Below are positions 12,024 through 44,316 of a DNA stretch of 51,129 nucleotides, piece after piece. The position numbers and the translations under genes were made by a program. The notes beneath the pieces are model-generated. The model searched no databases. It saw nothing but the letters and a program-made list of their open reading frames with translations, and was not told where the DNA came from. This DNA comes from Desulfovibrio sp. GTDB taxonomy: Bacteria; Bacillota; Dethiobacteria; DTU022. The number at the start of each line of letters is the position of its first letter. The first letter of the stretch is position 1. The DNA lies in the NCBI GenBank assembly GCA_020060545.1, contig JAGUZX010000057.1, forward strand, positions 1-51,129, given 5' to 3'.

Positions 12024-12053
12024 TTGACTTGCCCCGGGGATTGGGTTTAAAAT
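12024..12053 (+). promoter_or_regulatory. Sigma-A promoter of the pantothenate operon
   Basis: TTGACT at 12024-12029 and TAAAAT at 12048-12053 are 18 bases apart, just behind the third M42 gene. Transcription from about 12060 would give a leader of roughly 180 bases before the first start codon at 12240. Confidence 0.6.
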
Positions 12054-12059
12054 GGAGGC

Positions 12060-12193
12060 GCCGGATGGCAGCTTATGGCAAGCGCTTGACCGGCTTTAAG
12101 GCTGTCTATGTCAAAAAATTGAATGGACCTGACTCTGCTTGGAGCCTTTGGACCGGGACAGAGGTACGCGCCAGTGGAAAGAGAAGCAAAAGT
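12060..12193 (+). ncRNA. Structured leader RNA, possible cis-regulator of the pan operon
   Basis: Between the promoter and the terminator the RNA can form two stem-loops. One pairs GGCAGCTT (12067) with AAGGCTGTC (12098). The other is the ten-pair stem CTCTG-CTTGG with CCGGG-A-CAGAG (about 12132-12162), containing one bulged A. With the terminator behind it, this is the layout of a transcriptional attenuator. A bulged-A stem ahead of panB-type genes recalls the pan RNA motif described for Firmicutes, but I cannot confirm the consensus. A separate small RNA about 165 bases long (for example 6S-like) is the alternative. T-box, TPP, SAM and cobalamin signatures are absent. Confidence 0.4.
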
Positions 12194-12226
12194 ACCTTCC
12201 TGTTCTTTTAAGGAAGGTCTTTTTTT
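12194..12226 (+). terminator. Intrinsic terminator in the pan operon leader
   Basis: The perfect 8-bp stem ACCTTCCT/AGGAAGGT with a nine-base loop is followed by C and seven T. It ends only 13 bases before the GTG of the DUF2520 gene, so it either attenuates the operon or ends an independent small RNA. Confidence 0.8.
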
Positions 12227-12239
12227 GGGAGGGAGAGCA

Positions 12240-13112
12240 GTGAAAAAAATCGCCGTAATCGGCGCAGGCAATGTGGGCACCGCCCTGGCCCAGGTGCTCC
12301 AGGACAAGGGATACGCTTTGGCCGGGGTTTGCTGCCGGACGGAAGCGTCGGCCGGCCGCGCCGCCGGGCGCTTGGGCTGCACTATTTTTACCGATCCGGG
12401 CGCCCTGGCCCGCCGGGCGGAGATTGTCTTCATAACAACGCCTGACCGCAGCATCGAGGCGGTATGCCGCCGCCTGGCCGGGAAAGAAGCGGTCGGTCCC
12501 GGGCAGGTCGTCCTGCATACCAGCGGGGCGCACAGCTCCTCCATCCTCGCCTCCGCCGGGGAGAGGGGAGCGGCGGTTCTCTCCATGCATCCCCTGCAGA
12601 CATTCCCCGATGTGGAAGCCGGTATCCGCAATTTAAAGGGTTCCTACTTTACGCTGGAAGGGGATCAGCGCGCGCTGCCGGTCGGCCTCGCCCTGGTTGA
12701 AGCGCTTGAAGGCCGGCCGCTGACCATCCCCACCGCCATGAAACCGCTCTACCATGCCGCCGCTTGCGTAGCCTGTAATTATTTTGTAAGTTTAATCGGC
12801 CTGGCCTTGCAGATGATGGAGAAGGCCGGCGTGCCGGGACGGGAGGCGCTGCCGGCGCTGCTGCCCCTGGTTGAGGGTACGCTGAACAATATCAAGCGGG
12901 TCGGCGTGCCGGCGGCGCTTACCGGACCGATCGACCGGGGCGATCACGGCACCGTCGCCGCTCATCTCCGGGTAATCGAGGAGGTAATGCCGGCGGCAAA
13001 GGAGCTTTACTGCAGCCTGGGCCGGCAAACCGCCCAAACGGCCAGGGCCAAAGGGACCCTGGACGAGGCGGGCCGGCGCGAATTTCAGAATTTGCTGCAC
13101 CAGGATAGTTGA
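12240..13112 (+). CDS. Rossmann-fold/DUF2520 oxidoreductase-like protein
   Basis: This 290-residue protein has an N-terminal NAD(P)-binding fold, KKIAVIGAGNVGTALAQVL, then LHTSGAHSSSILAS, SMHPLQTFPD and a C-terminal all-helical DUF2520 domain (AMKPLYHAAACVACNY and LTGPIDRGDHGTVAAHL). The architecture resembles 6-phosphogluconate dehydrogenase-fold reductases. The GTG at 12240 has GGGAGGGAG upstream. It is the first gene before panB and panC. Ketopantoate reduction is the only step between the PanB and PanC reactions, so an alternative ketopantoate reductase role is a reasonable inference, but it is not shown for this family as far as I know. Confidence 0.82.
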   Translation: MKKIAVIGAGNVGTALAQVLQDKGYALAGVCCRTEASAGRAAGRLGCTIFTDPGALARRAEIVFITTPDRSIEAVCRRLAGKEAVGPGQVVLHTSGAHSSSILASAGERGAAVLSMHPLQTFPDVEAGIRNLKGSYFTLEGDQRALPVGLALVEALEGRPLTIPTAMKPLYHAAACVACNYFVSLIGLALQMMEKAGVPGREALPALLPLVEGTLNNIKRVGVPAALTGPIDRGDHGTVAAHLRVIEEVMPAAKELYCSLGRQTAQTARAKGTLDEAGRREFQNLLHQDS

Positions 13113-13151
13113 AAGAGACGTTTCCGAAAATTATGCATGGAGGTGTTAAAG

Positions 13152-14000
13152 TTGAACGCACAGAAGGTAACCACGCTGACGCTGCGGGAGAAAAAGGCCG
13201 GGGGCGAAAAGATAACGATGCTCACCGCCTATGACTTCCCCACCGCGGTGCTGGTGGACGAAGCCGGAGTTGACACGATCCTGGTCGGAGACTCCCTGGG
13301 TATGGTCGTTTTGGGGTACACCGATACTCTGGCCGTTACCCTGGACGATATGATCCACCACGGGCGGGCGGTAGCCCGGGGGGTCAAACGGGCGATGGTA
13401 ATTATCGATCTGCCCTTCATGACCTACCAGATCAGCCGGGAACAGGCCATGTCCAGCGCCGGCAGGGTGATCCGGGAAACCGGGGCACAGGCCGTCAAAC
13501 TTGAGGGCGGCGCGGAGATCGCCGAGGCGGTGCGCGGCATCACCGGGGCGGGGGTGCCCGTCCTGGGCCACCTGGGCTTGACCCCCCAATCGGTGGGGCA
13601 GCTGGGCGGCTATAAGGTACAGGGGAAAGATGCGGCCACCGCGCGCAAGCTTCTTGACGATGCCCTGACCCTCGAGGCGGCGGGCGCCTTTGGCGTAGTG
13701 CTCGAGTGCGTGCCCTGGCCGCTGGCCAAGTTGATCACCGAGAAACTTACCATCCCCACCATCGGGATCGGGGCCGGCCTCTTTTGCGACGGGCAGGTTT
13801 TGGTTTACCACGACGTGATGGGGCTTTATACCGGCCACCGGCCCAAGTTCGTCAAACAGTACGCCAATGCGCGCGAGGAGATGCTGAAAGGGGTAGCCGC
13901 CTACATCCGGGAAGTGCAGGAAGGCTGTTTCCCCTCGGAGGAACACGGTTTCGGCATGCCCGAGTCCGTAATTGAAAAGTTAAAGGGTCAGACCCCTTAA
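13152..14000 (+). CDS. panB: 3-methyl-2-oxobutanoate hydroxymethyltransferase
   Basis: This roughly 282-residue enzyme transfers a hydroxymethyl group from methylene-tetrahydrofolate to 2-oxoisovalerate to give ketopantoate. The barrel motifs are present: MLTAYDFPTAVLVDEAGVD, ILVGDSLGMVVLGY (metal-binding Asp), MTYQ, AVKLEGG, LGHLGLTPQS and TIGIGAG. The TTG at 13152 is preferred because GGAGGTG ends six bases before it; the in-frame ATG at 13137 overlaps that site. The last residues (KLKGQTP) and the stop are encoded inside a dispersed palindrome at 13977-14003, so the natural C terminus has been altered. panC follows after 21 bases. Confidence 0.95.
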   Translation: MNAQKVTTLTLREKKAGGEKITMLTAYDFPTAVLVDEAGVDTILVGDSLGMVVLGYTDTLAVTLDDMIHHGRAVARGVKRAMVIIDLPFMTYQISREQAMSSAGRVIRETGAQAVKLEGGAEIAEAVRGITGAGVPVLGHLGLTPQSVGQLGGYKVQGKDAATARKLLDDALTLEAAGAFGVVLECVPWPLAKLITEKLTIPTIGIGAGLFCDGQVLVYHDVMGLYTGHRPKFVKQYANAREEMLKGVAAYIREVQEGCFPSEEHGFGMPESVIEKLKGQTP

Positions 14001-14003
14001 CTT
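13977..14003. repeat. Dispersed palindrome GGGTC-A-GACCC overlapping the panB stop
   Basis: Two 13-base arms with one mismatch surround a central A at 13990. The palindrome supplies the final codons and the stop of panB. The layout, a GC core, single central A and AT-rich flanks, is the same as in the repeat at 4361-4401 although the sequence differs. Confidence 0.7.
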
Positions 14004-14021
14004 ATTGTCGGGAGGATGCCA

Positions 14022-14867
14022 GTGGAAATCGCCGAGAACATTAACGAGCTGCGGGAGAAAGTCCGCGTCCTTCAGGATCAGAAAGTGATTACCGGATTTG
14101 TGCCGACGATGGGCTTCCTGCACCGGGGCCACCTCTCCCTCCTGGAAAAAGCCCGCCTTGAGACGGACTACGTTATTTTAAGCATATTTGTAAACCCGCT
14201 GCAATTCGGCCGGGGCGAGGATTTGGACAACTACCCCCGCGATTTGCCCGGCGATCTGCGGCAAGCCCGCGCTGCGGGCTGCGGCCTGGTATACCTGCCC
14301 CGGGAAGAGGAGCTCTACCCGCCCGGTTACAATACCTACGTTACTGTGGAGGGCTTGACGGAAGGCCTTTGCGGCGCCTCCCGGCCCGGCCATTTCCGCG
14401 GGGTCGCCACGATCGTCGCCAAGCTGTTTAACCTGGTCCAGCCGGCAAAAGCCTACTTCGGACAGAAGGATTACCAGCAGGCGCAGGTGATTAAGAAAAT
14501 GGTTGCCGACCTGAACATGGACTTGGAAGTTGTGATCTGCCCGACCGTCCGCGAAAGCGACGGCTTAGCCATGAGTTCACGCAACAGCTATCTCAGCCCA
14601 CCGGAGCGGGCAGCGGCGGTGGTGCTTTACCGCGCCCTGCGCGAAGGTGAAGCGGCTATCGCCCTGGGGGAGAGGGACGGAGCGGCCGTGGAGGAACGGA
14701 TGCGGCAGGTAATCAACGCGGAACCGCTGGCTTCGATCGACTACCTGGCTGTGGTGGACGGGGAAATACTGCGGCCGCTTAAACTTTTGCGCAACACAGT
14801 TGTCCTGGCCGGGGCGATTAAAATCGGCCGGACCCGGCTGATCGACAACATCATCGTAAAAATTTAG
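14022..14867 (+). CDS. panC: Pantothenate synthetase (pantoate-beta-alanine ligase)
   Basis: This roughly 281-residue enzyme joins pantoate and beta-alanine at the expense of ATP to make pantothenate. The nucleotidyltransferase motifs are clear: FVPTMGFLHRGHLSLL (HxGH type), SIFVNPLQFG, the FGQKDYQQ motif and the C-terminal MSSRNSYL loop (KMSKS-like). Length matches the family. The GTG at 14022 lies six bases after GGAGG, whereas the ATG at 14016 directly abuts it; I prefer the GTG. It is the last gene of the operon. panD is not in the window. Confidence 0.95.
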   Translation: MEIAENINELREKVRVLQDQKVITGFVPTMGFLHRGHLSLLEKARLETDYVILSIFVNPLQFGRGEDLDNYPRDLPGDLRQARAAGCGLVYLPREEELYPPGYNTYVTVEGLTEGLCGASRPGHFRGVATIVAKLFNLVQPAKAYFGQKDYQQAQVIKKMVADLNMDLEVVICPTVRESDGLAMSSRNSYLSPPERAAAVVLYRALREGEAAIALGERDGAAVEERMRQVINAEPLASIDYLAVVDGEILRPLKLLRNTVVLAGAIKIGRTRLIDNIIVKI

Positions 14868-15234: not shown

Positions 15235-16467
15235 GTGAAACGGACGATCGCCCTAAACCGGGTGGAAGAGCTAAAAAAAGCGATTAAAGATTACCAATAC
15301 GCTCAAAAAATTATCCCCACCGGGTTCAGCCGTTGGCCTGCGATCTTGAAGCACCAGGCGCGGATCAAAGCATATTTCGGCGCTTCCGACGAGCAATGGC
15401 ACAACTGGCGCTGGCACATCAAAAACCGCATTAATACCACGCGGGTTTTGCAGCAGTTTCTACACCTGACCCCGCAAGAAATCGAAGAGATCGATACGGC
15501 CGGTTCTCGCTATCGCTGGGGGGTGTCGCCATATTACCTCAGCCTGATCGATCCCGCCGATCCGGCGGATCCGATCCGGCGCCAGGCCGTACCGACCATT
15601 CTCGAATACACCGACAAATACGGCGAAAGCGACCCCATGGATGAAGAATACACTTCGCCCGCCTCCGCCATCACCCGGCGTTACCCGGATCGCCTGATCA
15701 TCAATGTCACCAATCAGTGCCCGATGTACTGCCGCCATTGCCAGCGCCGCCGCAACATCGGAGAGCGGGATCTCGCCACTCCCCGGGATCATATCGAGGA
15801 AGCTCTACAGTACATCCGTAAAAATAAAGAGATCCGCGACGTGCTCCTGACCGGCGGAGACGGGTTCATGCTGAACAACAAAAAGATCGCCTGGTTTCTG
15901 GCGCAGCTTTCCGCGATCCCTCACGTGGAAATAAAACGTTTCGGCACGCGCACCCCGGTAACGCTGCCTTACCGCATCGACGACGAGCTCTGCCGGATCC
16001 TTTCCTCGCACCTGCCCGTTTATGTGAACACGCATTTTAATCACCCCCTGGAGGTTACTCCCGCCGCCCGCGAGGCTTGCATGAAACTGGCCCGGGCCGG
16101 GGTGGCCCTGGGAAACCAGGCGGTCCTCCTGAAAGGGGTGAACAACGATGCTTTTATCATGCGCAAACTCAACCAGGAGCTGCTTAAAATCATGGTCCGC
16201 CCATACTATATTTTTCATTCGAAGCGGGTGAGAGGCACTTCCCATTTTTGGACCCGCGTTGAAGAAGGGATCGAGATCATGGAGCATTTGCGCGGCTACA
16301 CCTCCGGGTTGGCCATTCCCACCTTTATTATCAACGCCCCGCACGGATACGGCAAGACGCCTATTCTTCCCACCTACCTGGTGGGGATGGGCAAGGATTA
16401 CCTGACGATCAGGACCTGGGAAAACCGCATCATGCGATACGACAACCGGGAAATGGAGGAGAGTTGA
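15235..16467 (+). CDS. eam: KamA-family radical SAM aminomutase, probable glutamate 2,3-aminomutase
   Basis: This 410-residue radical SAM, PLP-dependent aminomutase has the cluster motif CPMYCRHC (Cys162, Cys166, Cys169) followed by QRRRNIGE, and the PLP lysine is Lys374 in GYGKTP. In clostridial lysine 2,3-aminomutase two aspartates bind the substrate epsilon-amino group, in the YQCDLS and VVDAPG motifs. Here the same places read FHSKRV (Lys330) and IINAPH (Asn367). Lys and Asn at these sites are what I recall for glutamate 2,3-aminomutase, which makes beta-glutamate, a compatible solute. Substrate is therefore inferred from two residues. GTG start with GGGGAGGGG upstream. The stop overlaps the next gene by four bases. 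Confidence 0.8.
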   Translation: MKRTIALNRVEELKKAIKDYQYAQKIIPTGFSRWPAILKHQARIKAYFGASDEQWHNWRWHIKNRINTTRVLQQFLHLTPQEIEEIDTAGSRYRWGVSPYYLSLIDPADPADPIRRQAVPTILEYTDKYGESDPMDEEYTSPASAITRRYPDRLIINVTNQCPMYCRHCQRRRNIGERDLATPRDHIEEALQYIRKNKEIRDVLLTGGDGFMLNNKKIAWFLAQLSAIPHVEIKRFGTRTPVTLPYRIDDELCRILSSHLPVYVNTHFNHPLEVTPAAREACMKLARAGVALGNQAVLLKGVNNDAFIMRKLNQELLKIMVRPYYIFHSKRVRGTSHFWTRVEEGIEIMEHLRGYTSGLAIPTFIINAPHGYGKTPILPTYLVGMGKDYLTIRTWENRIMRYDNREMEES

Positions 16468-35693: not shown

Positions 35694-35779
35694 TGGTGCC
35701 GAAGGTGGGAGTTGAACCCACATGGGCGTAGCCCGCACGATTTTGAGTCGTGTGCGTCTGCCTGTTCCGCCACTTCGGC
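35694..35779 (-). tRNA. tRNA-Leu (anticodon CAA)
   Basis: On the minus strand the acceptor GCCGAAG (35779 down to 35773) pairs with CTTCGGC, followed by discriminator A and an encoded CCA (35696-35694). The anticodon stem CACGA/TCGTG encloses the loop CTCAAAA, giving anticodon CAA for UUG codons. A long variable arm and the T arm with GGTTCAACTCC are present, as expected for a class II leucine tRNA of 86 bases. Confidence 0.95.
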
Positions 35780-43863: not shown

Positions 43864-44316
43864 GGGCCCGAGTAAATAAGGCAGCCGCGAGGACATGACC
43901 GCAAGGCGGTTCTCGAGGAAAGTCCGAGCTCCGCAGGGCAGGGTGCTGGGTAACGCCCAGTGGGGGTGACCCTAAGGCCAGTGCCACAGAAAATATACCG
44001 CCCCGCACACAACTCTGACAAAAAAGGCCGCTATCGCGCTGTCCAATGTCGGAGCAAATATTGCCGCTGCAACAGATTTTTGCTGGAGTCAGGTGCGGGG
44101 CAAGGGTGCAACGGTGCGGTAAGAGCGCACCAGGAACCGGGAGACCGGTTTGCTAGGTAAACCCCACCCGGAGCAAGACCAAATAGGAGGAGGATGAAGT
44201 TGCCCGCTGACTCCTCGGGTTAGGTCGCTGGAGACGACAGGCAACTGGCGTCCTAGATAGATGGCTGCCGCTCTCTTTGAGAGAACAGAACTCGGCTTAA
44301 CAATTTGCTCGGGCCC
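43864..44316 (+). ncRNA. rnpB: RNase P RNA
   Basis: The catalytic RNA of RNase P, which matures tRNA 5' ends. P1 closes perfectly (GGGCCCGAG at 43864 with CTCGGGCCC ending at 44316). The conserved GAGGAAAGTCCGAGCTCC (CR I region, 43915 onward), CAGGGTGCTGGGTAACGCCCAG, GCCACAGAAAATATACCGCC, GGTAAACCCCACCCGGAGCAAGACCAAATAG and AGATAGATGGCTGCCGC...ACAGAACTCGGCTTA elements are present in order. The P4 pairing and the length of about 453 bases point to the ancestral A-type fold with an enlarged central arm. Confidence 0.97.

Follow-up and report, generated by a model that had tools for sequence, protein, structure and literature searches.

How is the short pantothenate operon at 12240-14867 of the window (the whole 51,129-nucleotide stretch of Desulfovibrio sp. 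DNA analysed here) controlled, and what is the RNA that leads into it? A first-pass annotation had proposed a structured leader in this place, consisting of a promoter, two stems and a strong terminator ending 13 bases before the first gene, and had read it as a riboswitch or attenuator layout, possibly of the pan motif. We located the following features.

12024..12053, + strand: promoter-like -35 TTGACT and -10 TAAAAT with a spacer of 18 (a sequence match; relatives show the same placement with respect to stem 1)
12060..12094, + strand: pan stem 1, with A12070 and A12089 conserved and unpaired and an internal A-G/U-U mismatch
12095..12132, + strand: linker between the pan stems, variable among relatives, where a small hairpin is possible
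12133..12163, + strand: pan stem 2 (CUCUGCUUGGAGCC..GGACCGGGACAGAG), with conserved A12143 and A12158
12155..12167, + strand: GGGACAGAGGUAC, the stem 2 3’ strand plus tail, proposed 5’ strand of an antiterminator
12192..12206, + strand: GUACCUUCCUGUUCU, the terminator 5’ arm and loop, proposed 3’ strand of the antiterminator, with UC at 12198-12199 bulged
12194..12226, + strand: intrinsic terminator, ACCUUCCU-loop-AGGAAGGU, then C and seven U
12227..12232, + strand: Shine-Dalgarno-like GGGAGG 5’ of the GTG at 12240 (direct reading)
12240..13112, + strand: DUF2520/Rossmann-like protein (PF10728 and PF10727), a PanG-like putative ketopantoate reductase by context
13137..14000, + strand: panB
14016..14867, + strand: panC

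The leader as first described was confirmed in its main outline, with a promoter-like pair, two stems that recur in homologues, and a terminator whose hairpin occupies 12194-12218 and whose T-run (12220-12226) does end 13 bases before the GTG. Both stems stood, and the single bulged A that had been assigned to one of them did not, as each stem carries two conserved A positions. In stem 1, 12060-12064 is paired to 12090-12094 and 12067-12074 to 12080-12086, and A12070, A12089 and the tandem A-G/U-U mismatch stay unpaired. Stem 2 is formed by 12133-12142 and 12153-12163, with A12158 outside the pairing, and is topped by A12143, a G12144/A12152 mismatch (a position unpaired in 21 of 25 relatives) and two C-G pairs. 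The promoter-like pair matches consensus at 10 of 12 positions and is weak evidence alone, with 2 such pairs in the 4 kb scanned against 1.1 expected. Across pan loci, a -10-like hexamer lies directly 5’ of stem 1 in 111/169 cases, compared with 21.8 expected.

Both stems and the terminator appear in the minimum-energy fold of the unconstrained leader. Shuffled sequences folded as well as the native one in 70/500 cases for stem 1, 27/500 for stem 2 and 2/500 for the terminator, and the whole leader is not significant (z -1.23), such that we rejected the folding-energy z-score as proof. At the level of sequence analysis, it is the homologues rather than the folding energy that mark the leader as more than chance.

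The Rfam pan model (RF01749) covers 12062-12165 (+) from end to end at 29.8 bits (E 0.0018 in a 281-base stretch, 0.0038 genome-wide), its sole match within the source genome, where no second pan element was found. Since this score lies below the curated gathering cut-off of 36.2, partly because of the tandem mismatch in stem 1, a standard Rfam scan misses the leader and reports nothing there at the gathering threshold. Within the window, that threshold yields only two matches, an RNase P RNA class A at 43869-44315 (+) and a tRNA at 35697-35779 (-). A covariance model built from 25 aligned pan leaders of the same class (R1; window left out, two-stem structure imposed) finds 12062-12171 at 48.9 bits, with E 4.7e-9 in the window and 2.3e-7 genome-wide. 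In the 25-relative alignment the structure is kept in 90.3% of cells, and double-change cells number 42 compared with 19.0 in shuffles (0/500) and 7-13 in slid structures. This covariation, whose absence among homologous leaders the first-pass annotation had named as part of what would refute its reading, comes mostly from stem 1; stem 2 is near-invariant among the relatives and hence conserved rather than covarying. The leader shares the pan-type conserved A pairs in the model alignment (A12070/A12089 in stem 1, A12143/A12158 in stem 2), the tandem arrangement typical of most members (12060-12094 and 12133-12163) and the pan-typical placement 5’ of a panB/panC/panD operon, here DUF2520-panB-panC. 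The Rfam covariance search gave no match of the leader to 6S RNA up to E 10, and every other family was ruled out, none showing a credible match at a permissive threshold. By sequence and predicted structure, 12062-12165 (+) belongs to the pan motif as a diverged but otherwise ordinary copy, and it is laid out like a transcription attenuator.

In relatives, the orthologous operon is preceded by a pan RNA at the same position and in the same orientation. An M42 peptidase gene lies 5’ of the leader, and at least two relatives also have one 5’ of their pan RNA. From operon context, the DUF2520 proteins are putatively the PanG family. The name panG was introduced for a ketopantoate reductase gene of Francisella, and Clostridioides difficile has a homologue (as cited in PMC4207893); the B. 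subtilis PanG reflects a different naming (YkpB; PMC11487621). No PF02261 (panD) match and no panD under a pan element were found in the source genome, while a pan RNA precedes panD in the related genome G010. After panC, a glutamate 2,3-aminomutase-like radical SAM gene occupies 15235-16467 (TIGR04368, 661 bits, cut-off 650), which might conceivably contribute to the supply of beta-amino acids. A second panB, 44% identical to that of the window, is found at G000:C67:10738-11565 (in L077), with no pan RNA detected there, and in most same-family genomes with panB, that panB is only 45-48% identical to the window’s.

We found that a strong terminator follows the pan RNA in 158 of the 169 loci with enough sequence, compared with 37/507 dinucleotide shuffles; the score of the window’s own terminator, 16.1, was equalled by 3/200 shuffles. 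Across the 158 loci, the terminator 5’ arm is complementary to the tail right after stem 2 and often to the stem 2 3’ strand as well. In the window, the predicted duplex between GGGACAG-AGGUAC (12155-12167) and GUACCU-UC-CUGUUCU (12192-12206) comprises 13 pairs at -16.5 kcal/mol. Over all 158 loci, with kinship among them ignored, cognate duplexes average -13.8 kcal/mol. Permuting the partners gives -12.0 (sd 0.2, 0/1000), shuffling the 3’ strands -10.7, and an equally long piece of the linker -4.7. As the terminator 5’ arm is constrained twice, complementing both its own 3’ arm and the tail, part of this pairing signal is shared. The cognate-over-permuted signal comes from loci outside the window’s class; within that class cognate pairing is no better than permuted (187/1000, or 1272/2000 with a shorter tail) because both strands are near-invariant. 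Antiterminator covariation was undetectable within the class, and we retained it solely as a phylum-wide signal. L012, the panD leader of the closest relative, is without the AGGUAC tail.

Predicted folding of successive transcripts outlines how such a switch could operate. When the window transcript ends before the terminator 3’ arm, its minimum-energy fold swaps stem 2 for the 13 antiterminator pairs, and once that arm is included, stem 2 and the terminator reappear. The minimum-energy folds contain at least 5 antiterminator pairs in only 94/158 truncated transcripts, and the antiterminator register is not identical between the duplex and truncated-fold predictions. In these predictions the expression platform overlaps the receptor, a riboswitch-like feature, in that the antiterminator uses the stem 2 3’ strand. 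The longer antiterminator cannot form together with stem 2, so a stabilised stem 2 should cause termination.

The genes downstream of pan RNAs bear on what might be sensed. Most of the 170 pan loci in Bacillota precede DUF2520, panB, panC or panD, and coenzyme A pathway genes come next at nearly all pan loci checked. In L128, L151 and L208 no recognised gene of this pathway lies directly next; an amidohydrolase-like gene does so in L151 and L208, followed in L151 by a BirA-like gene. Other targets are a YhdT-like gene with PanF (L071, G001:C188:1-4000; TIGR02119, 542.5 bits, cut-off 328), an ECF S component and the type III pantothenate kinase CoaX (in some cases joined by BioY or BirA), an OPT transporter and the type II pantothenate kinase CoaW, and a PanS-like transporter accompanied by panC-panD. 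PF12822 is the only family assignment of the ECF protein, whose context suggests that it is the pantothenate S component. Loci with uptake (PanF, ECF S component, OPT) or kinase (CoaX, CoaW) genes are L071, L203, L134, L154, L162, L163, L164 and L143, and further L174, L177, L186, L197, L202, L204 and L209. In 8 of the 17 searched genomes with such pan RNAs panB was absent, and the same eight were without panC; G317, one of these, consists of a single contig, and completeness is at least 95% for seven of them and 89% for G001.

Where both panB and panC are absent, the signal cannot be ketopantoate or pantoate produced by the pathway, and the fact that such genomes carry pan RNAs ahead of panF, ECF S-component, coaX and coaW genes argues against either compound. 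Pantothenate, or something made from it, would be the simplest signal common to all; the shortened list comprises pantothenate itself, phosphorylated forms of it, CoA, or a protein sensing one of these. Judging from gene content, pantothenate or a later compound such as CoA is the probable effector, sensed directly or via a protein, with CoA the most likely among them. The small stems, together with the suggestion by the 2010 authors that pan may be a dimeric protein-binding motif (PMC2864571), place protein-mediated sensing slightly ahead: we consider a candidate RNA-binding protein somewhat favoured as the route, and direct sensing by the RNA a serious but lesser prospect. CoA has been a conspicuous gap among riboswitch ligands in two 2022 reviews (PMC9971707, PMC10043782). 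More speculatively, the pan RNA could fill this gap by sensing CoA or a pantothenate derivative directly; it would then be a small riboswitch class of tandem hairpins in which stem 2 doubles as an antiterminator strand and which governs vitamin B5 synthesis, uptake and phosphorylation across Bacillota.

Some loci depart from the terminator layout. L174, L177 and L204 are without a strong terminator, and their stem 2 tail, GGGAGG, is spaced like a ribosome-binding site from the probable start of the ECF S-component gene, which seemingly uses a non-AUG codon (AUU or AUA); this layout would suit translational control with the same tail as the switch strand. In family f8 (L065, L068, L072, L073, L075), stem 2 alone is recognisable, and some of these loci have a TATAAT-like box at the expected place of stem 1. 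A single pan hairpin may be sufficient in this family.

Combining these results, we chart a model that we regard as likely, in which the tandem pan RNA controls the panG-like/panB/panC operon by transcription attenuation in response to pantothenate or a later compound. Transcription would start at or beside stem 1. When the pathway product is plentiful, bound effector would keep stem 2 folded, the terminator 5’ arm would pair with its 3’ arm, and transcription would stop at about 12226. When the product is scarce, stem 2 would open and its 3’ strand with the AGGUAC tail would pair with the terminator 5’ arm and loop, and polymerase would read into the operon. The analysed sequences support pan membership, a conserved terminator, a conserved mutually exclusive pairing and the gene context; we infer both the direction, in which binding most likely stabilises stem 2 (an off switch), and the identity of the binder.

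The same attenuator could work with the opposite sign, the effector acting as an on switch as folded stem 2 stacks on an AGGUAC:GUACCU antiterminator, and the inner part of stem 2 can indeed coexist with this 6-bp pairing in one fold (-45.3 kcal/mol). However, the longer antiterminator consumes GGGACAG of stem 2 itself, and an off switch makes better sense as feedback on a regulon of biosynthesis and uptake genes, leaving the reversed sign improbable. The independent small RNA that the first-pass annotation had kept as its other option would end at the terminator and act elsewhere, with the operon served by another promoter. The promoter-to-terminator unit of about 165 nt would suit it, and short RNAs from terminated leaders are expected under either model, but about 170 loci place pan directly before coenzyme A pathway genes, which belong to several unrelated families, and in three of these loci the stem 2 tail is itself the likely ribosome-binding site; we consider this option very unlikely. 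Hardly credible is a chance leader, in which an ordinary operon promoter and an unrelated terminator merely resemble pan: the sub-threshold Rfam score and unexceptional folding energy would agree with it, but the genome-wide R1 match and the conserved place and orientation in relatives speak against it. Attenuation with an off switch is the reading that we retain.

The 2010 description of the motif by Weinberg et al. names only panB, panC and aspartate decarboxylase in its text and describes no terminator switch (PMC2864571); later annotations place the motif ahead of panB-panC-panD in Bacillus methanolicus (PMC4342826) and Paenibacillus riograndensis (PMC5670726). In the open literature searched, we found no paper on the pan effector, an antiterminator, or uptake and kinase targets. 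What is added since 2010 is that predicted pan RNAs also stand before panF, ECF S-component, coaX, coaW and panS genes. The value lies at the family level, in a concrete switch model, which specifies exact mutations for testing, and a regulon that narrows the effector; the window copy itself is ordinary.

Compared with the pan motif RF01749, the window copy has the tandem hairpins, the conserved bulged A residues and the place before panB/panC genes, and differs in its score below the Rfam cut-off, the tandem mismatch in stem 1 and DUF2520 as first gene. Terminating riboswitches and protein-dependent attenuators have a ligand or protein, such as the papers found do not report for pan RNA, and resemble the leader in having a conserved receptor and a mutually exclusive antiterminator and terminator. 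In PyrR-type attenuation, an RNA-binding system, a short hairpin receptor lies near a terminator before a biosynthesis operon. Pan differs from it in sequence and in its genes, and the window leader shares with it this same arrangement of short hairpin receptor, nearby terminator and biosynthesis operon.
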